A stretch of DNA of 64,000 nucleotides, from assembly GCF_007744515.1 (NCBI RefSeq), contig NZ_CP036268.1, positions 4,707,113-4,771,112 on the forward strand. Direction: 5' to 3'. A program made the position numbers and the translations under genes. Source of the DNA: Stratiformator vulcanicus (lineage in GTDB: Bacteria; Planctomycetota; Planctomycetia; Planctomycetales; Planctomycetaceae). The notes below the pieces were generated by a model, which saw nothing but the letters and a program-made list of their open reading frames with translations, was not told where the DNA came from and did not search any database. Shown in pieces: positions 1,239 through 39,268 of this stretch (within the stretch, counting starts at the first letter, position 1; each line of letters opens with the position of its first letter).

Positions 1239-2813
1239 TCAGGCAGCCAAGCGTTGCTTGTTGATTGGACGAATCAAGTTGGTCACCAGCGTAACCGTTC
1301 GCTCCGTTGCTCCTCGGCCCTTCGCCACGACCTGGGCGGCTCGCTGCCCTCGCTCTGAGGCGGATTCGCGATCACAAAGCACCTCGGCAACCCGTTCGCG
1401 CAGTTCTGTTTCATCGGTCGCGAATTCGACCGCGTCGGCCATCTTCAGTTGCTCGACGACGTCGCGAAAGTTCTGCGTATTCGGGCCGAGGATCAACGGG
1501 ACGCCGTAGGCGGCGGGTTCGATCATGTTCTGCCCGCCCCGCCCCGTCCCCGGCATGCTCCCGCCCACAAAGGCGATATCGGCCAACGCCCAACACGCCG
1601 AGAGTTCGCCCAACGTATCAAGCAACCTCACACAAGGCCCACTTCCACTAGCCCGACGCGCAAGCGAGGGATTCGCGGGGCAAGATTCAAGAACATCTTG
1701 CGACCCTTCGAGCGGAATCCCTTGCTTGCGCTGCGGGCTTGTGTTGGGGAGTGATGTCTCTTGCGGGGTGCCGGGGGCGTGTCGCCCCCGCAGGGATGAG
1801 TCCGCTTGCTCCTTGCACGGGTTTAATCCTGTCGCATCCCCATCATCGGCTGTCGCGGTTACGGGCGATGCAACGATTGGACGAGCCTCCAGATGCGGGG
1901 GCGACACGCCCCCGGCACCCGACTTCAGATTTGATCGACGTATCAAACCGAATCCTTTCGACGCGATCAGCGACGCCACTTCGTCGAAGCGTTCGCGATG
2001 GCGGGGGACGAGGATCAGTTTTAGATTAGGATACTCATCGAGCAGGTTGCGATAGGCACCCAGAATCATGCCCTCTTCGGGATCCTTCGTGCTGCCAGCG
2101 ACCCAAACCGGTTCTTCCTTCACGAGATCAAAGACCTGCCGGAGCTCGTCGATCAACGGGTTCGAACGGTCGGGGGTGGCCCGGTCGAACTTGAGCGAAC
2201 CGGTGACTTGGACCCGCTCTGCCAACACGCCCAATCGCCGGAAGTGCTCGGCATACTGCTCGGTCTGCGCCGCCACAAGAGAGAGCCGGCGCACGATCGG
2301 TTTGAGGATAAACCCGAGCCGTGAGTATCCGCGGAAGCTCTTCTCCCCCAGCCGGCCGTTGACGATTGCGACGGGGACTCCAGCGTCAGCCATGATCGAG
2401 ATCAGGTTGGGCCACAGTTCCAATTCGGAGAGAATCAAAGCCGAGGGCCTGATCCGCAGCATCGCTTCATTAACCGCCCAAGAGAAATCGAGCGGGCAGA
2501 AGCAGACGGTATCATCGGGGAACTTCTCGACCGCGACGTCGCGACCGGTCGAGGTCGTCGTGGTGATCACAAATTCGACGTTGGGCCGCTCGCGCCGCAA
2601 TCGCTCGACCAAGTCGGGCAGTAGCAACACTTCCCCCACGCTCACAGCGTGTATCCACAAGCAAGGCCGCTCACCCGATCGTACGGGAACACGGCCAAAG
2701 AGCTTTTCGCCCCAGCCGACGCGGTATTTCCCCTGCCGCACGGCGCGATACGCCAGCATCGGCGAGACAGCCAATAGGAGCGCCAAGTAAGCGAGATTAA
2801 ATAGATAAGGCAT
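1239..2813 (-). CDS. waaA: 3-deoxy-D-manno-octulosonic acid (Kdo) transferase with repeat-derived insertion
   Basis: Transfers Kdo from CMP-Kdo to lipid A precursor at the inner membrane (GT30 family). It has an N-terminal membrane anchor (about residues 3-20), the N-domain motif HAVSVGEV, the stretch ALILSELELWPNL, PRHRERF near 270, and the C-domain nucleotide-sugar motif GGSMPGTGRGGQN near 418. The protein is 524 residues against about 425 for the family. The excess is a block at about residues 299-391, between PRHRERF and LLDTLGEL, encoded by 1641-1919. That block consists of dispersed palindromic repeats and contains TSPQRKQG and SLARRAS. The frame stays open because the insert is 279 bases (93 codons). 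Everything outside the block looks like an intact enzyme. Codirectional with secA upstream and metK downstream. Confidence 0.93.
   Translation of the reverse strand: MPYLFNLAYLALLLAVSPMLAYRAVRQGKYRVGWGEKLFGRVPVRSGERPCLWIHAVSVGEVLLLPDLVERLRRERPNVEFVITTTTSTGRDVAVEKFPDDTVCFCPLDFSWAVNEAMLRIRPSALILSELELWPNLISIMADAGVPVAIVNGRLGEKSFRGYSRLGFILKPIVRRLSLVAAQTEQYAEHFRRLGVLAERVQVTGSLKFDRATPDRSNPLIDELRQVFDLVKEEPVWVAGSTKDPEEGMILGAYRNLLDEYPNLKLILVPRHRERFDEVASLIASKGFGLIRRSNLKSGAGGVSPPHLEARPIVASPVTATADDGDATGLNPCKEQADSSLRGRHAPGTPQETSLPNTSPQRKQGIPLEGSQDVLESCPANPSLARRASGSGPCVRLLDTLGELSACWALADIAFVGGSMPGTGRGGQNMIEPAAYGVPLILGPNTQNFRDVVEQLKMADAVEFATDETELRERVAEVLCDRESASERGQRAAQVVAKGRGATERTVTLVTNLIRPINKQRLAA
1647..1742. 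repeat. 96-bp palindromic element (family B), copy in waaA
   Basis: The arms TAGCCCGACGCGCAAGCGAG and its near inverse, ending CTTGCGCTGCGGGCTTGT, bracket a centre with its own hairpin (CAAGAT...ATCTTG). It is the same length as, and in the same arrangement as, the copy at 2833-2928. The outer arms are conserved while the centres differ in sequence but both fold. On the minus strand the arms encode TSPQRKQG and SLARRAS, peptides I associate with planctomycete proteins. Confidence 0.85.
1768..1918. repeat. Inverted pair of GC-rich palindromes (family A, REPIN-like) in waaA
   Basis: The left unit at 1768-1793 and the inverted right unit at 1895-1918 share the core GGGGGCG-TGT-CGCCCCC, a 7-bp stem with a 3-base loop. 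About 100 bp separate them. The same unit, also as an inverted pair, flanks the RAYT transposase at 9389-10130. An inverted doublet of this kind is the layout of a REPIN, a non-autonomous element thought to be moved by RAYT proteins. Confidence 0.85.
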
Positions 2814-2936: not shown

Positions 2937-5900
2937 TCACGCAGCCCCGTGGCATTTCTTGTATTTCTTCCCGCTGCCGCAGGGGCATGGGTCGTTGCGG
3001 CCGACTTTTTCCATGCGATTGACGATCGGGTCAACCGTTTTGACTTCCTGTCCCGGCTCGAGCTGGCTGCCGCCCGATTCGGTGTATTGCTGTTGCGGCT
3101 GAGGTTCGGGGGCTGCCTCTTCAGCGTTCGCGTGAGAGACCTCCGTGATCTGCCAGAGATTGCCGACGAACTCCCGGCTTTCTTTTTCGAGCCGGAAGAT
3201 GAAGCCGGTGACCTGTTCGTCGATCCGCTCCCACATCGCCTGAAAGGCCCGCCGACCTTCACGTTTGTATTCGACCTTCGGGTCTTTTTGGGCATAGCCG
3301 ACCAGTCCGATGCCGGAGCGAACGTGGTCCATGTGATACAGGTGATCTTTCCACGCCGTATCGACCAGTTCCAACAGCAGTGACCGCTCCGCGTGGGCGA
3401 GTTCAGGGCGGTAGTACGCCTGATACTGCATCAGCAGCCGCTGGCGAGCGGCGTCTTTCGGCAGTGCGGCGACATCTTCGGGAGTGAGCGTCGCGTGAAA
3501 TTCCTCGTTCGCCCAAGTGATGAGCTCACCCATTTGATCGGTCTTCGGCGTGTGCCCGTTGCCTTCATGCCCGCCGTAGGCGTCTTCCAGGAGCGAATCG
3601 ATCCGTTCGCTGACCTCGCCGTTGGCGTAGAACTGTCGGCTGGCGTCCTGCAGCAAATTCTGTAACTGGTCGCGGCTTTTACCCTTAACCTGCTCGGCGT
3701 TGAACGACGCCTTGAAGCGGCCGTTGGCCCAGCGGACGAGTCCGTCGCGGTCGGACTGCTGTGACTGGGCGCTCTCCGGCACGAATCGCGTCATGCCGAC
3801 GGCGACTGGGAACTGGACTTCTTTGTCGTGATACATCTCCCGCAACTTTGTGCGGACCGACTCGACGGCCTGTTCGGGCGAAAGTTCTTCGAACGACTTC
3901 GGATCCAACTGCATCGTGAAGTGCTGCGCGAGCCAGCCGCATAACTGCTGCTCGTTGAAGTCGGGCACCAGGAACTGCTGGAGGACTGAAAAGTCGTACC
4001 GCTCAATCGCCTGTGAGGAACGCTCGCGGAGGTAGCCGTGAATGTCGTCGCGGCCGACCTTCTTCAATTCACGATCGTTCGTATTGAGGCCGAAATGCAC
4101 GTTGGCCCACTTTGAAAGGGCGAGCCAGTTCCAATCACGTTCTTCTTCCTCTTCGGGCAAATTCTCTTCGATCTGCTCGCCGATGTACTCGTCCGCCTGC
4201 GCGTTGCATTCGTCTTTCAGGAAGGTGACGAGTTCCTCGTACTCCAGCTCCTTGACCTGCTCCGATTCAAGGTCGAGGCGGTACTGCTGCGAGGCGAACG
4301 CGGCGAGCGACTCCCAGCGATAGCGCGGATTGAGGAAGTGCGGCACCAACTTCTCGACCTGCCGATCGATCATCTCGAGGATGATTTCGCGGCAATCGGC
4401 TCCGTCGAGGATTTTCTGGCGGAACGTATAGACCTGCTTGCGCTGGTCGTCCATCACCTCATCGTATTCGAGCAGGTGCTTCCGCTGGTCGAAGTGGCGT
4501 TCTTCGACTTTCTTCTGGGCCCCTTCAATTCGCCGCGTGACCATCCCGCTGATGATCGGCTCACCGTCCTGCAGACCGGCCCAACTGAGCACGCCCTGCA
4601 CCCATTCTCCGGCGAACAGCCGCAGCAACTTGTCCTCGAGCGAGACGATAAACACGCTCGAGCCCGGGTCGCCCTGACGCCCGGCCCGCCCGCGAAGCTG
4701 ATTGTCGATCCGGCGAGAGTCGTGCCGCTCGGTCCCGATGACGTGTAGACCTCCGAGGTCGGCGACCTGTCGGCCCTCTTTCTTCATCCCCTCGCGCTCG
4801 GCGATTTGCGCAGTCAGGTCGTCCCATTCCTGCTTGCTGACGTCGAGCCGGGTCTCGTACGTCTGCCGCAGTTCTTCCCAAGCCAGGTACTCGGGGTTAC
4901 CCCCGAGAATGATGTCGGTACCGCGACCCGCCATGTTCGTGGCGATCGTGACGGCTGCCTTGCGGCCGGCCTGCGCAATCAACTCGGCTTCTTTTTCCTG
5001 CTGCTTGGCGTTCAGGACATTGTGCTTGATGCCCTTCTTGTTCAGCTTGCGGCTGACCAGTTCGCTCGACTCGATGCTCGTGGTACCAACGAGGACCGGG
5101 CGGCCTTTCTTGTGCTCTTCAATCGCGTCTTCGGCGACGGCGGCCCACTTTTCTTTTTCGGTCCGGAAAATCACATCCGGCATGTTGTTCCGCTGACTGG
5201 GCCGGTTCGTCGGGACGTTAATGACGTCGAGCTTGTAGATCTTCCAGAACTCGTCCGACTCGGTCATCGCCGTACCGGTCATGCCCGACAGCTTGTCGTA
5301 CAGCTTGAAGAAGTTCTGCAACGTGATCGTGGCGAGCGTCTGGTTCTCCGGCTTGACCCGGACCCCTTCCTTCGCCTCGACCGCCTGGTGCAGGCCGTCG
5401 GACCACTGCCGGCCTTCCATCTTCCGACCGGTGTGCTCATCCACGATGATGATCTCATCGTGTTCGACGACGTATTCGACGTCCTTGCGGTACAGGTAAT
5501 GGGCCTTGAGCGAGTTATCGATCAGGTGCGGCCATTCCATATTGCCCGCGGTGTAGAACGATTCGACGCCGGTCAGTTCTTCGGCCCGGCGGACCCCCGA
5601 CTCGGTCAGGTGGCAGGTCCGCTCTTTCTCTTTGACCTCGAAGTCCTCATCCCGCTTGAGCTGCCGGGCGATGCGATCGGCCTTGGAATACTTCGTGATG
5701 TCATCGTGAGCCGGGCCCGAGATGATCAGCGGCGTCCGCGCCTCGTCGATCAGAATGTTGTCGATTTCGTCGACGATCGCGTAGGTCAGCGGCCCCTGAA
5801 CTTGCAGTTCCTTCCGCGGCTTCATGTTGTCGCGGAGGTAATCGAAACCGAACTCGTTATTCGTTCCGTACGTGATGTCGCAGGCGTAGGCCCGCTGCCG

Positions 5901-6485
5901 CTCCTGCGCGTTCATCGGCGACTGGATCGCGTCGACCGTCATTCCCAGCCCGAGGAAGATCGGCCCCATCCACTCCATATCGCGTCGGGCAAGGTAATCG
6001 TTGACCGTCACCACGTGGACGTGCCCGGCCAGACCGTTGAGGAATGCCGGCGCGGTCGCGACGAGCGTCTTCCCTTCCCCGGTCGTCATTTCGGCGATCA
6101 TGCCGCGGTGCAGGATGACGCCGCCGACCATCTGCACGTCGTACTGACGCATTCTCAGGTTGCGCCATGCCGATTCGCGGACGCGTGCGAAGGCTTCGGG
6201 CAACAGATCGTCGAGCGTCTCCCCGTTGGCGAGTCGCTCACGGAAGTCGGCCGTCGTGCGAAGCAACTCTTCGTCGGAGAGTTGCTTCACCGACTCTTCG
6301 AGGCCGTTGATCTGATCGACCAGCGATCCCGGAGTGATCTTATCCTTGCCCGTCTTTGGGTCGCGGACGAAGCCGAGATTCCGGACGCGATGCTCGTTCG
6401 ACGAACCGAACATCTTCGTGATGCCACGCTCCACCTTCCCGGTGAAAGCGTTGAGGTAATCTCCGACGCGATCGAGAGCTTCCAT
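2937..6485 (-). CDS. secA: Preprotein translocase ATPase SecA
   Basis: ATP-driven motor that pushes unfolded secretory proteins through SecYEG. Walker A reads TTGEGKT at about residues 134-140 and the DEAD-box equivalent reads [20 protein letters not shown] near residue 240. The helicase-like nucleotide-binding domain 2 carries [10 protein letters not shown] and [11 protein letters not shown]. The C-terminus has the zinc/SecB-binding motif [13 protein letters not shown]. The protein has 1182 residues, well above the 800-900 of E. coli or Bacillus; the extra length lies mainly in the helical scaffold/wing half, roughly residues 700-1050, which is rich in acidic and Gln residues. The start ATG at 6485 is preceded by a GAGGA-like site. 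It is first in the secA-waaA-metK set. Confidence 0.98.
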
Positions 6486-9388: not shown

Positions 9389-9417
9389 GTGCCGGGGGCG
9401 TGTCGCCCCCGCAGTGT
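9389..9417 (+). repeat. Left REP-like palindrome of RAYT unit (family A)
   Basis: Core stem GGGGGCG (9394-9400), loop TGT, stem CGCCCCC (9404-9410), with conserved flanks GTGCC on the left and GCAGTG on the right. It is the exact inverse of 10102-10130. Confidence 0.92.
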
Positions 9418-9477
9418 AAGGTTCGCTAACATATTGCACCGCCACCCACTAAAATAACTTAACAACGTTCAAAGCAA

Positions 9478-10032
9478 GTGGCCTCGACTCGCCGATCCTA
9501 TAATGACCCCGGCCATGCCCGCGAGTTGACATTTTCTTGCTACCAGCGGCTCCCTATGCTGAACAGCGAGCGGAGCCGTCAATGGCTGGGCAGTGCAATT
9601 GATCAAGCGAGAGATCGATTCCACTTTGAACTTTGGGCCTATGTGATAATGCCCGAACATGTGCACCTGCTGGTGTACCCACTGAATGCACGACACGGTA
9701 TCGAAGTAATCCGTGCTGCGATTAAGCGGCCTGTCGCAAAGAACGCCGTCGATTGGCTGTCGGAGAACGACCCGGAGTGGCTCAATCGCATCACAGTCCG
9801 AAAGGGCATTCGCTCGGAACGCCGGTTCTGGCAGAAGGGTGCCGGCTACGACCGGAACGTCACTTCATCGAAAGCACTGCAAAACATCGTAAATTACATC
9901 CACATGAATCCGGTCCGCCGGGGGCACGTACAACGAGCTGTCGACTGGAAGTGGTCGAGCGCGTCGTTCGTGTCGGAGCAACGGCCGGGACCTATTGAGG
10001 TTGATCGCATACTGTCGGAGTGGTGGGATTAG
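9478..10032 (+). CDS. REP-associated tyrosine transposase (RAYT, Y1_Tnp family)
   Basis: HUH-type single-strand nuclease of the IS200-like/Y1 family, which cuts and joins at REP hairpins. The GTG at 9478 begins (V)ASTRRSYNDPGHARELTFS, a typical RAYT N-terminus. The HUH-equivalent pair is HVH at residues 61-63 in MPEHVHLL. The candidate nucleophile is Tyr124 in FWQKGAGYDRN, and the C-terminal family signature is YIHMNPVRRGHV. At 184 residues it is full length for the family and has no internal stop or frameshift, so it may be active. A GTG start without a strong ribosome site suggests low expression. Domesticated RAYTs lack insertion-sequence ends and use REPs as substrates; the flanking palindromes here fit that. 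Confidence 0.92.
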   Translation: MASTRRSYNDPGHARELTFSCYQRLPMLNSERSRQWLGSAIDQARDRFHFELWAYVIMPEHVHLLVYPLNARHGIEVIRAAIKRPVAKNAVDWLSENDPEWLNRITVRKGIRSERRFWQKGAGYDRNVTSSKALQNIVNYIHMNPVRRGHVQRAVDWKWSSASFVSEQRPGPIEVDRILSEWWD

Positions 10033-10101
10033 TGTTCGATGGGACGAATAAATTCTCTGGAAATAAAGGGTATGAAATCGTGCAATAACTAAGCACATCG
10101 C

Positions 10102-10130
10102 ACACTGCGGGGGCGACACGCCCCCGGCAC
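10102..10130 (-). repeat. Right REP-like palindrome of RAYT unit (family A)
   Basis: Perfect inverse of 9389-9417 over 29 bases, with the same 7-bp stem and 3-base loop. It lies about 70 bases after the RAYT stop and about 45 bases before the glgB terminator. Confidence 0.92.
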
Positions 10131-14608: not shown

Positions 14609-16633
14609 ATGATTGTCAGTCGTGAATGGTTGTCCGAATACGTCGACGTGGACATGCCGGTTGAGGAATTGACCGACCGGCTGACGTTCTCGGGCCTCAA
14701 TCTCGAAGGGGTCGAAGAAGTCGGCGATGACGTCGCGATCGACCTCGAAGTCACCAGCAATCGCCCCGACTGCCTCGGCCACATCGGCGTCGCCCGCGAG
14801 ATCGCCGTCCTCTACCAAATCGAACTGAAGCTCCCGCAGGCCGAGCCGCCCGCCTCCGACGAACAGACATCGGACGTCACTTCCGTCGAGATTCAGTGCC
14901 CCGACCTCTGCCCGCGCTACAACGCCCGCATCATCCGCGGCATCAAGGTCGGCCCCAGCCCCGATTGGCTCGTGCGTCGGCTCGAATCCGTTGGTATCAA
15001 ATCGGTCAACAACGTCGTCGATGCGACCAACTATGTGATGCTGGAGACCGGCCAGCCGTTCCACGCTTTCGATCTCGCCAAGTTGAAGGAGGGCCGCATC
15101 GTCGTCCGCCGGGCAGCCAAACGCGAGAAGATCGAAGCGATCGATCACCAGACGTACGAACTCTCCGAAGAGATGTGCGTCATCGCCGATGCCGAGCGAC
15201 CGGTCGCCGTCGCCGGCGTGATGGGCGGCTTCGATAGCGAAATCTCTAAGGGCACCACCGACATCCTGCTGGAGACGGCCCAGTTCGTTCCGCTTACGGT
15301 CCGCGGCACCGCCCGCAAGCTGAAGCTCTTCAGCCCGTCGCAGTTCCGGTTCGAGCGACTTGTCGATGCCACCCAGCTCGACTGGAACAGCCGCCGTTGC
15401 GCGGAGGTGATCCTCGACGTCGCCGGCGGGACTCTTTGTGCCGGTTCGGTCCACGCGGGCGAGGAAATTCCCACATCGCGCGAGCCGGTCGAGATGCGGT
15501 TCGGCCAGATTCCCCGGCTGCTCGGGATCGACATCGCCCCTGCAGAAGCAGTCAAAATATTGGAGCGCCTCGGCCTCAAGGTCGCAGGCAAAGTCACGGA
15601 CGAGAAAGCAGCCTTTGTTCCCCCAAGCTGGCGGCCCGACCTCACGCGCGAGTGCGACCTGATCGAAGAGGTCGCTCGTATTTACGGATACGACGAGATC
15701 CCGGATGACGCAAATATTCCGGTTGAAGTGCCGACGTTGCCGAAGGCCGATGCCGTCCGGCAGCGAATGCGGGCGGTCCTCAATGGAGCCGGGCTCTCCG
15801 AAGCGATCACGATCACATTCATCAGCGAAGACCAGCAGGCGCTATTCGACCCGTACGCGGGCCAAGAGCCGCTGCGTGTTGACCATTCAAGCCGTCGGCA
15901 CGAGCACATCCTCCGCCGCAGCCTCGTGCCGAGCCTGCTGATGTGCCGCCGCGAGAACGAACGTCACGGCACCGCCAACGCCGAGTTGTTCGAGATCGCG
16001 AAGACGTTTCTCGAAGCCTCACCCGGCAAGCCGTCGGCCGAACCGATGGTGGTTTCGGGGGTGACCGGTCGCGAGTTCGGCGATGTGAAGGGCATTGTCG
16101 AGTCGCTCGTCGAAGACCTCTGCCCCGACGCCGTGATCACCGCGCGCCCGGCGAAGCTGGACGCCTTCGCCGAGGGCCGGGCGGCGGAGCTGTCTCTCGG
16201 CGACACGCCCCTCGGCTGGGTCGGCGAACTCGATACGAACGTCTTGGAGTCGCCCACCCTCGACCTCCGCGGGGCCGCCTCGGCATTCGAATTGTTCGTC
16301 GACCCGCTCGTGGAGCGCGCAACGCTTCAGCGGACGTTCGAGCCAATCCCGCAGTTTCCGGCCGTCGAGCGCGACATTAATTTCATGCTCGCTGAACCGG
16401 TCACGTGGGAGAAGCTCTCCAACGTCGCCCTCGCCGCGGGGGGCGAATTGGTCGAGTCGGTCGAGTTCGCCAGCCAGTTCCGCGGCAAGCAGCTCGGCCC
16501 GAACAAGAAGTCCTACGTGATGCGGCTCGTCTTCCGCTCGCCCGAGGGCACCCTCACCGGCGATGAGGTCGACAAAGTCCAACAACAAATCGTCTCCGCC
16601 TGCGAACAGCAATGCGAAGCCGTCCAGCGATGA
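14609..16633 (+). CDS. pheT: Phenylalanine-tRNA ligase beta subunit
   Basis: Beta subunit of the (alpha-beta)2 enzyme that charges tRNA-Phe. The protein begins MIVSREWLSEYVDVDMPVEE, then has B3/B4 editing-domain blocks (NNVVDATNYVMLETGQPFHAFD, GVMGGFDSEI), B5 (WRPDLTRECDLIEEVARIYGYD), a catalytic-like core, and a C-terminal anticodon-binding FDX domain (FPAVERDINF). It has 674 residues and lacks the N-terminal EMAP-type tRNA-binding domain of the ~800-residue E. coli form, so it is the short type. pheS is not adjacent. The stop overlaps the next gene's ATG (ATGA). Confidence 0.96.
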   Translation: MIVSREWLSEYVDVDMPVEELTDRLTFSGLNLEGVEEVGDDVAIDLEVTSNRPDCLGHIGVAREIAVLYQIELKLPQAEPPASDEQTSDVTSVEIQCPDLCPRYNARIIRGIKVGPSPDWLVRRLESVGIKSVNNVVDATNYVMLETGQPFHAFDLAKLKEGRIVVRRAAKREKIEAIDHQTYELSEEMCVIADAERPVAVAGVMGGFDSEISKGTTDILLETAQFVPLTVRGTARKLKLFSPSQFRFERLVDATQLDWNSRRCAEVILDVAGGTLCAGSVHAGEEIPTSREPVEMRFGQIPRLLGIDIAPAEAVKILERLGLKVAGKVTDEKAAFVPPSWRPDLTRECDLIEEVARIYGYDEIPDDANIPVEVPTLPKADAVRQRMRAVLNGAGLSEAITITFISEDQQALFDPYAGQEPLRVDHSSRRHEHILRRSLVPSLLMCRRENERHGTANAELFEIAKTFLEASPGKPSAEPMVVSGVTGREFGDVKGIVESLVEDLCPDAVITARPAKLDAFAEGRAAELSLGDTPLGWVGELDTNVLESPTLDLRGAASAFELFVDPLVERATLQRTFEPIPQFPAVERDINFMLAEPVTWEKLSNVALAAGGELVESVEFASQFRGKQLGPNKKSYVMRLVFRSPEGTLTGDEVDKVQQQIVSACEQQCEAVQR

Positions 16634-17181
16634 GCGCGACAAACACAAACCCGCAGCGCAAAGAAGTAACGCCCCCGAGCACAAGCCCGCAGCGCAAGCA
16701 AGGGACCACACGGGTGACCCTTACCGAAACCAACGACGCCGATTTCTGTACGCCCCCAGCGAATCTGACACCACCATTTCAGCCAAGAATGTTCAACGGG
16801 CGTTGCAAAATCTTCCTTACAATTGGAATCATTTCTCTGCTGCTCTCTTCGCTACCGTGGCTCGGCTATGGACGAGGCGCATTTGTCGTTCCCGGGTGGG
16901 ACATTCATCTACCGACTCTATCACTAACAAGGGAGCATATGGTCCCTTTCGGCGAAGTCCTGACCGCAATTCTTGAATTGCCATTAACGCTGCTGAGCAT
17001 TATCCGCCCGCTGGATTACTTTATTTACTTTCAAGGTGAAGGAGTGCGAACCGCACGACCGTTTACAATTTTCTTGTTCTGGCACTTATGCGGAGTGACG
17101 TTCGTTTGGCTATCGGTTCGGCCTTTAGTTTTTCCCGCAATTTACGGTCACCGTGAGAACTTCGATCTCAGGTCCAATTGA
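16630..17181 (+). CDS. Membrane protein with repeat-encoded N-terminus
   Basis: Unrecognised protein of 183 residues. The ATG at 16630 overlaps the pheT stop and its stop overlaps the dus start, so it is placed as the middle gene of a coupled set. Hydrophobic segments lie at about residues 60-77, 105-125 and 140-165. The first 40 residues contain NPQRKEV and TSPQRKQGTTR, encoded by one degenerate and one good half-copy of the family B palindrome (16645-16663 and 16681-16706). A later ATG at 16789 (MFNGRCKIFLTIGIISLLL) would skip the repeat and start near the first membrane segment. Which start is used decides whether the repeat is translated. Confidence 0.65.
   Translation: MSATNTNPQRKEVTPPSTSPQRKQGTTRVTLTETNDADFCTPPANLTPPFQPRMFNGRCKIFLTIGIISLLLSSLPWLGYGRGAFVVPGWDIHLPTLSLTREHMVPFGEVLTAILELPLTLLSIIRPLDYFIYFQGEGVRTARPFTIFLFWHLCGVTFVWLSVRPLVFPAIYGHRENFDLRSN
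16645..16706 (+). repeat. Two direct half-copies of family B palindrome
   Basis: 16681-16706 reads ACAAGCCCGCAGCGCAAGCA followed by AGGGAC, a match to the arm of the 96-bp elements. 16645-16663 is a shorter, degenerate copy in the same direction. They lie directly after pheT, inside the next reading frame. Confidence 0.8.
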
Positions 17182-29065: not shown

Positions 29066-29140
29066 CAGCTTCGTTCAACACAGCTTCGTTCAACACAGCT
29101 TCGTTCAACACAGCTTGGTTCGTCACACCTTGATTCAACA
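29066..29140. repeat. Five 15-bp tandem repeats between phoH and pgpH
   Basis: Units begin at 29066, 29081, 29096, 29111 and 29126. The first three are identical (CAGCTTCGTTCAACA); the last two are degenerate. They lie about 150-220 bases upstream of the pgpH start. A minus-strand frame over them would read a repeated NEAVL, but its start and context are weak, so I call it non-coding. Confidence 0.9.
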
Positions 29141-36015: not shown

Positions 36016-37068
36016 ATGAATCGCGATCTGAAACTCGGCCTCTCGTTCGGAATTCTTTGCAGCGGACTGCTTGCCGCATTCTGCCTGAAGAACGAGCCCG
36101 ACCTCACGACAGGTTTGCCAAAGCTCGAGAATCCCGAGCAACTCGACCGCCAGATCGCCGACCGCCAGGTGACCCCGTATCTCGACGGCTTGGACGAATT
36201 CCCCTCCGGCCCGTCCATCAGTCGGGTCGCGCCGCAAGCCGATGCCGGCGAATGGTCGTCACTCGGTTCTTCAATCGTTCGCACTCCTCGACCGACCGAC
36301 GTGACGCTCGGCTCCCCGGTCAGCTTCGGGCAATTCGTGTCGGACGGCCCCTCATTCGGTCGTGTGCCCGACCCGATCCGCTACGAGTCTTTACCCACGC
36401 TGGAACCGATCGGTTCAGACGCGCCGAAACCGCGTCGCGATCGAATGGCACCAACCGACTTCGGGTCTCATCCCGCCGACTTCGACTTGGCTCCCTCGGC
36501 ACCGCGGCCGATTAAAGACCCGCGTGCCGTTCGCGGACCGACGCTGCCGACGACGCACGTTGTCATGCCGGGCGAAACGCTGAGCGGAATCGCACTGAAG
36601 CATTACAGCGACTCGTCATATTATGGGAAAATTTTTGAGGCCAACCGACATTTGCTTCGCGATCCGGACAGCGTCCGCGTCGGCATGAGATTACTCATTC
36701 CGGCCGTCGATAAGACCTCGCAGCTTCCCCGCTTCGAAAAAATTGAGACGTTCGATTCGGGTCGAGCAACCGGCCCGACCGCCGTCGATCCTATTTCTAA
36801 TCCTCAACGCGCCGATCTGCCCGCCTCCGGCCCGTCGGACCGACGGATGGGTCACCATGCCCCGCCCTCGCCAATCCAGGTCGCCGTTCGCGATACGACC
36901 ACGTCGAAACCGGCCTCAGCTTCGAAACTCTTTCGCCCGGTCAGCCGCCCGCCTTTTGTGTCATCGCATAAAATTGAAAACCGAGAAGCCGCGGCAAAGA
37001 GCCAGCCGATCGAACGCCCGCGAACGACCGTGATCGACAGCACGAATATCAAAGAACCCGGGAAGTAG
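36016..37068 (+). CDS. LysM-domain membrane-anchored protein
   Basis: The ATG at 36016 has GGAG 8 bases upstream and starts MNRDLKLGLSFGILCSGLLAA, a signal anchor or signal peptide. A Pro/Asp-rich linker follows, then one LysM domain at about residues 181-230 (THVVMPGETLSGIALKHYSD through VRVGMRLLIP), which binds peptidoglycan-type glycans. The remaining 120 residues are a low-complexity tail ending IDSTNIKEPGK. The last 133 coding bases recur 2 kb away at 38974. Probably a cell-wall or envelope-organising protein; no enzymatic domain. Confidence 0.85.
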   Translation: MNRDLKLGLSFGILCSGLLAAFCLKNEPDLTTGLPKLENPEQLDRQIADRQVTPYLDGLDEFPSGPSISRVAPQADAGEWSSLGSSIVRTPRPTDVTLGSPVSFGQFVSDGPSFGRVPDPIRYESLPTLEPIGSDAPKPRRDRMAPTDFGSHPADFDLAPSAPRPIKDPRAVRGPTLPTTHVVMPGETLSGIALKHYSDSSYYGKIFEANRHLLRDPDSVRVGMRLLIPAVDKTSQLPRFEKIETFDSGRATGPTAVDPISNPQRADLPASGPSDRRMGHHAPPSPIQVAVRDTTTSKPASASKLFRPVSRPPFVSSHKIENREAAAKSQPIERPRTTVIDSTNIKEPGK

Positions 37069-37077
37069 GGCGTCGGC
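36936..37077 (+). repeat. 142-bp direct repeat, copy A (3' end of the LysM gene)
   Basis: Matches 38974-39115 over 142 bases with five mismatches and no gaps, in the same direction. It covers the last 133 coding bases of the LysM gene and 9 bases after its stop. The two copies bracket the FG-GAP/cytochrome gene. Confidence 0.95.
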
Positions 37078-37151
37078 AGCACAGTCCAGACGGTCGCTGA
37101 TCGCATCTCGGCTAACCACGAGAAGAGAACGGGCTGAAGTCCGACATGCTG

Positions 37152-38822: not shown

Positions 38823-38973
38823 ATCGATTCGATTCAGCAAGCGGTGCGCTGGCCTTTCGAGACAAAGTCATAATACACCGCTTTCACCAATAGTCTTGAT
38901 CTTTAGCGATCCGAAGTCAAAGTACCAGTGACGATCCCCTCCATCGAGAACAATTCGACCCTGAAATCTTCCA

Positions 38974-39115
38974 CCCGGTCAGCCGCCCGGCTCTTGTGTC
39001 ATCGCATAAAATTGAAAACCGGGAAGCCGCGGCAAAGAGCCAGCCGATCGAACGCCCGCGAACGACCGTGATCGACAGCACGAATATTAAAGAGCCCGGG
39101 AAGTAGGGCGTCGGC
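38974..39115 (+). pseudogene. Copy B of the lysM 3' end, gene fragment
   Basis: Five mismatches with 36936-37077. Read in the LysM frame, three of the five (CGA/CGG, ATC/ATT, GAA/GAG) are silent third-position changes and two change PF to AL; the stop codon is kept at 39104-39106. There is no upstream remainder of the gene. The silent bias suggests it descends from a once-translated copy, but five sites are too few to prove it. Confidence 0.8.
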
Positions 39116-39268
39116 CGCGAAGTCGGTTCCCCTCAGCGAGTTCGATCCATCGATATCGACCTCGGCACCCACCGACCGGGCTGTCGGTGTGACGATCAGA
39201 GGCGGGCCGGCTGCTGCCTGCCGGTCATGTTCGAAGCCGTCAGACGCCATGCAATTTGCAGATTGCCG

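Follow-up and report, generated by a model that had tools for sequence, protein, structure and literature searches.

Classic REPINs are extragenic. In REPIN/RAYT systems, two inverted REP arms form a hairpin, the elements occur in many copies, and they flank the gene of a Y1 tyrosine transposase. REPs that lie in frame within genes were reported by Di Nocera et al. 2013 (PMC3733652), who described GTAG/CGTC REPs and TIR repeats as units or dimers inside conserved genes, with double insertions in one gene and clusters that encode 43–82 residues among them. Copies are otherwise mostly intergenic there, and the RAYT genes have either these repeats or long inverted repeats as their flanks. The classic protein-coding palindromic case is that of the Rickettsia palindromic elements (RPEs; Ogata et al. 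2000, 2002), which in the account given by a review (PMC10969869) are mobile sequences of ~150 bp lying in frame in unrelated conserved genes, where the encoded peptide is tolerated.

The locus described here shares features with each of these systems. We analysed a 64,000-nt stretch of the genome of Stratiformator vulcanicus (Planctomycetota; GCF_007744515.1, NZ_CP036268.1, positions 4,707,113–4,771,112), hereafter the window, in which waaA carries an insert made of two REPINs from two transposase-linked families and not an ancestral domain. The relevant features, in window coordinates, are:

1239–2813, minus strand: waaA, lipid IV(A) 3-deoxy-D-manno-octulosonic acid transferase, 524 aa, bearing the insert (ORF and profile matches)
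1646–1743, no strand: element A, a family-A REPIN of 98 nt with two inverted REP arms, read in frame as ...TSPQRKQG...PSLARRAS (arm match)
1744–1764, no strand: spacer between elements A and B, 21 nt or 7 codons, possibly native loop or flank of A (loop lengths of relatives)
1765–1921, no strand: element B, a family-B REPIN of 157 nt with perfect 27-nt inverted arms, read in frame as GAGGVSPP...RGRHAPGT (arm match)
2832–2929, no strand: second family-A REPIN, 98 nt, in the gap between secA (2937–6485, minus strand) and the waaA start at 2813 (arm match)
9389–9439, plus strand: family-B arm to the left of the RAYT gene (arm match)
9478–10032, plus strand: REP-associated tyrosine transposase (RAYT, Y1_Tnp), 184 aa, with an HVH motif and the tyrosine motif NYIHMNPVR (NF047646, 89.5 bits, cut-off 80)
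10080–10130, minus strand: family-B arm to the right of the RAYT gene, with a 29-nt exact inverted match to the left arm (arm match)
16642–16705, no strand: further family-A arms opening the ORF 16630–17181 (plus strand), in frame as TNPQRK...TSPQRKQG; the start of this ORF may be mis-called (arm match)

The arms of element A lie at 1646–1671 and 1718–1743 and consist of a 26-nt arm (CACAAGCCCGcaGCGCAAGCaAGGGA) and a close variant in inverted orientation. Those of element B occupy 1766–1792 and 1894–1920, and each of them alone forms a hairpin (GGGGGCGTGTCGCCCCC). An earlier note on this DNA had described the insert as 279 bases at 1641–1919, in frame and free of stops. Frame and absence of stops held, but the edges were a few bases off: the conserved elements A and B together cover 1646–1921 (276 nt, 92 codons; ends uncertain by a few bases), and the inserted DNA amounts to 98 + 157 = 255 nt (85 codons) if the spacer is native. 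The ends are not resolvable to single bases, no sister genome with an empty site being available; a scan of genome contigs and a search for relatives found no congener genome, and the ancestral site without the insert could thus not be read. We also considered a scheme of compensating frames, in which the second insertion restored the reading frame. Neither 98 nor 157 nt is a multiple of three and their sum of 255 is, but these lengths use edges two bases beyond each arm and a one-base shift of an edge abolishes the pattern, and we do not put the scheme forward.

The identity of the host gene is clear. Its ORF has no internal stops, the product scores 195 bits with Pfam Glycos_transf_N, and NCBIfam models for lipid IV(A) Kdo transferases match as well. 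The protein was aligned with 29 others drawn from its family and class, the nearest of which are only ~50% identical. The segment from the PRHxERF-like to the LLDTxGEL-like motif spans 120 aa in S. vulcanicus and 30–64 aa (mostly 30–39) in the relatives, whose full lengths are mostly 430–471 aa, placing the insert in the variable loop between PRHRERF and LLDTLGEL where the earlier note had put it. Up to PRHRERF, and from LLDTLGEL onwards, the protein is ordinary. The ~85–92 extra in-frame codons are absent from all 29 relatives, including one from G028 (L030), a genome rich in family-A repeats. With the 21-nt spacer counted as native, the native loop has 35 residues, which matches the usual length among relatives. 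The loop is stretched to 50–64 aa in several other lineages (L012, L017, L035 and others), in sequence that is not REP-like, and inverted repeats longer than 12 nt were absent from the relatives' loops tested. A recurrent landing pad in the WaaA loop was rejected, since the long loops of other WaaAs lack REP-like inverted repeats.

Both repeat families occur elsewhere in the window, as had been claimed: family A at 2832–2929 and 16642–16705, and family B at 9389–9439 and 10080–10130. Genome-wide, family A comprises 142 arms at ≤1 mismatch and the 17-mer palindrome of family B has 34 exact copies, with a reversed control yielding none in either case; both counts greatly exceed chance. In the fetched loci these short palindromic arms form inverted pairs, 27 of family A and 7 of family B. 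Consensus sequences derived from 113 arms of family A and 41 of family B lack the GTAG and CGTC end tags, and we therefore do not assign the families to those REP superfamilies. Exact A arms are strand-skewed across the genome (38 forward, 60 reverse), a bias that might stem from single-strand transposition and its relation to the replication fork. At genome positions 76300–76545 (L070), four arms follow one another in the order A+ B+ B- A-; here a B REPIN appears to be nested within an A REPIN. The window holds other repeats too, namely a 15-nt tandem repeat (CAGCTTCGTTCAACA) of ~4–5 copies at 29066–29140 and a direct duplication of 161 nt with 93% identity, its copies 2 kb apart at 36926–37086 and 38964–39124.

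Depending on the frame, the A arm encodes TSPQRKQG, TSPTRKRG, QARSASKG or PSLARRA, and reading it in different frames accounts for the peptides TSPQRKQG and SLARRAS that the earlier note had associated with many planctomycete proteins. The A arm is indeed in frame in at least five other S. vulcanicus proteins, but the wider attribution goes too far: of 246 genomes sampled from the phylum, only 4 contained A-type arms and the other 242 lacked them. High copy numbers are restricted to three of the four. Besides S. vulcanicus, these are G028, from another family of the same class (156 A-arm copies), and G137, from elsewhere in the phylum (102); in the fourth genome the arm is rare. This patchy distribution of a near-identical arm across families and classes suggests that the REP/RAYT system spread horizontally or was lost repeatedly. 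Among 66 arms in G028 and G137, a single doubtful in-frame case was seen.

The repeats are relics of mobile elements, being REPIN-like and flanking Y1 transposase genes, which supports the proposal that they are mobile. The genome encodes eleven Y1_Tnp (IS200-like HUH tyrosine transposase) genes. One of them is the RAYT gene at 9478–10032, ~7 kb from the waaA insert, and judging by its flanking arms its product likely mobilises family B. A search for viral relatives of this RAYT found none. A second Y1 transposase gene (L047) has A arms 5–177 nt away on both sides; its product exceeds the Pfam Y1_Tnp cut-off but reaches only 20.4 bits on the RAYT model (NF047646; cut-off 80), so that the case for naming this putative family-A transposase a RAYT is weaker than for family B. 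Several A arms in both orientations flank the Y1 gene at genome positions 3882014–3882860 (L120/L047). Despite the weak RAYT profile score, we regard the L047 locus as a candidate master locus for family A. From this linkage, together with established RAYT biology, we infer that these transposases made the insertions.

To see where copies persist, we surveyed 724 kb of fetched loci from the same genome, with genes predicted by a hexamer model and a copy list that is incomplete. Of 133 A/B clusters, 123 were intergenic, 3 lay at gene edges and 7 were internal, an intragenic share of ~5%, whereas random placement would put ~69% within genes. Six of the seven internal clusters share their frame with the coding sequence to either side of them: those in waaA, DapF, a NIF3-family protein, an Lhr-like helicase and two related HINT-domain proteins. 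The seventh (L110) is a doubtful case, its host gene being weakly supported. At the repeat, DapF exceeds its relatives by ~18–21 aa and NIF3 by ~23–28 aa, the latter figure relating to relatives without other inserts, as some bear other, larger NIF3 inserts. The two HINT-domain proteins (L175; genome positions 4442538 and 4445914) share an in-frame A arm in the linker before a likely membrane segment and are evidently a recent duplication.

The REPINs are not built for coding. Their six-frame open fraction equals that of random genomic pieces (0.43 versus 0.44 for A, 0.40 versus 0.35 for B), and a built-in coding capacity was rejected on this ground. The suggestion that such repeats can serve as tolerated coding inserts is supported: the waaA copy keeps the frame of a gene that is present once and retains its conserved residues, and is probably tolerated. 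Tolerance also fits better than a design for coding, since the open-frame rate is that of random sequence and most copies lie outside genes. The picture is one in which selection would purge most genic insertions and spare the few that keep the frame within tolerant loops.

To judge whether WaaA is still functional, we examined its conservation and predicted structure. Every invariant column of a 14-sequence alignment is conserved (e.g. E61, E130, K208, P270, R271 and E432), and waaA, lpxC and lpxK are each present in one copy in the genome. Given the retained family-invariant residues and the single-copy status of these genes, the enzyme is probably functional as a Kdo transferase. AlphaFold2, run on a 14-sequence alignment, gave a pLDDT of ~30 at residues 299–384 and mostly >85 elsewhere, and the best solved-structure match to the predicted fold is Aquifex aeolicus WaaA/KdtA (GT30; 2XCI), with which the protein has a common fold and conserved residues. 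The block is predicted as a very-low-confidence loop between strands 289–293 and 394–398 of the C-terminal domain, in agreement with the surface loop raised in the earlier note; the equivalent loop of 2XCI has 23 residues (239–261), compared with the ~120 between the motifs in S. vulcanicus. A 255-nt insert, a 35-residue native loop and an 86-residue disordered stretch agree with a native spacer, although this agreement is suggestive only.

We favour, with a probability of roughly 0.88, the reading that two non-autonomous REPINs lie side by side in a surface loop of WaaA, are read through and are tolerated by the enzyme. For each element, a single-strand HUH/Y1 transposase (RAYT) would have recognised the hairpins and copied or moved it, and both elements would have landed next to each other in the variable loop. 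As the insert is a multiple of three and stop-free in the waaA frame, ribosomes would read through it, and the C-terminal domain would gain a long unstructured loop between two of its β-strands. WaaA would tolerate this loop, and selection would have retained the waaA copy while nearly all others persist only between genes. We infer that the insert is translated and that WaaA activity is normal. Per codon, the hexamer coding score drops from 0.39 and 0.29 in the flanking parts to ~0 within the insert, a value to be expected of foreign, untuned DNA. It is unlikely that the insert instead inactivated waaA, leaving a young pseudogene or a dead product whose frame is open by luck. An open, uninterrupted frame is expected after ~6% of random double insertions (0.43 × 0.40 × 1/3), making luck possible, and the insert mRNA is predicted to fold very stably (−166.8 kcal/mol, z −10.5), which might slow ribosomes and could impede translation. 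However, waaA is single-copy alongside single-copy lpxC and lpxK, the invariant residues on either side of the insert are all retained in an otherwise undamaged ORF, and the insertion lies in the sole WaaA loop that varies in length among relatives.

The same strong hairpins separate two parts of the message, which could be taken to favour split translation, with an internal start after the insert, assembly of the N- and C-terminal parts, and no translation of the insert as a linker. We consider this very improbable, as the insert is stop-free and sits within the C-terminal domain and not between domains; programmed ribosome bypass is likewise unneeded with an open frame. Chances are close to negligible that WaaA of this lineage has long possessed the block as native sequence with no more than a resemblance to the repeats: loop length does vary, up to 64 aa in some relatives, but the block closely matches two multi-copy families, has perfect 27-nt inverted arms, and has no counterpart to these in the relatives' tested loops. 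Exaptation, by which a basic, flexible peptide is now useful to WaaA (membrane contact, regulation or partner binding), is quite unlikely. R/K-rich peptides (TSPQRKQG, SLARRAS) in a membrane-associated enzyme and the presence of a similar peptide in several proteins would fit it; yet recurrent peptides follow from a shared DNA repeat that is open in all its frames, making peptide selection unnecessary, and the insert has neither a coding-type hexamer signature nor predicted structure. On the reading of tolerated REPINs, a further extension would make REPIN insertion a recurrent, still active route of loop lengthening in the lineage, with some basic peptides (TSPQRKQG, QARSASKG, SLARRAS) sharing a function, e.g. 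as a modification or membrane-binding site; we hold this to be improbable.

Set against the described systems, the waaA copy differs from classic REPINs in being coding. As with the intragenic REPs of PMC3733652, units and dimers lie in frame within conserved genes and are otherwise mostly intergenic, one gene carries a double insertion, and transposase genes are flanked by the same repeats, family B resembling the inverted-repeat-flanked transposases of that study. In contrast to those cases, S. vulcanicus has two unrelated families adjacent in one gene, a slightly longer insert (85–92 codons), waaA as host gene and no GTAG/CGTC consensus tag. The likeness to RPEs is one of behaviour: in-frame insertion in unrelated conserved genes was found for waaA, dapF, NIF3 and the Lhr-like helicase. 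According to the review's section on RPEs (PMC10969869), nearly half of the R. conorii copies are intragenic, compared with ~5% of clusters in S. vulcanicus, and that section names no dedicated transposase, whereas S. vulcanicus has linked transposase genes.

Intragenic REPs and RPEs have thus been published before, from Rickettsia and several other bacteria, and the waaA insert is a new, clear example from a planctomycete. With it, palindromic mobile DNA that codes for protein, for which Rickettsia is the best-known source, is extended to this group, and the inserts are tied to identified transposase genes in their own genome, of which one lies 7 kb away. For annotators, recurring peptides such as TSPQRKQG and SLARRAS are translated repeats and not protein motifs. 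With at least six proteins that contain copies, and relatives that lack them in the three compared, the absorption of mobile DNA by proteins becomes testable in a single organism.
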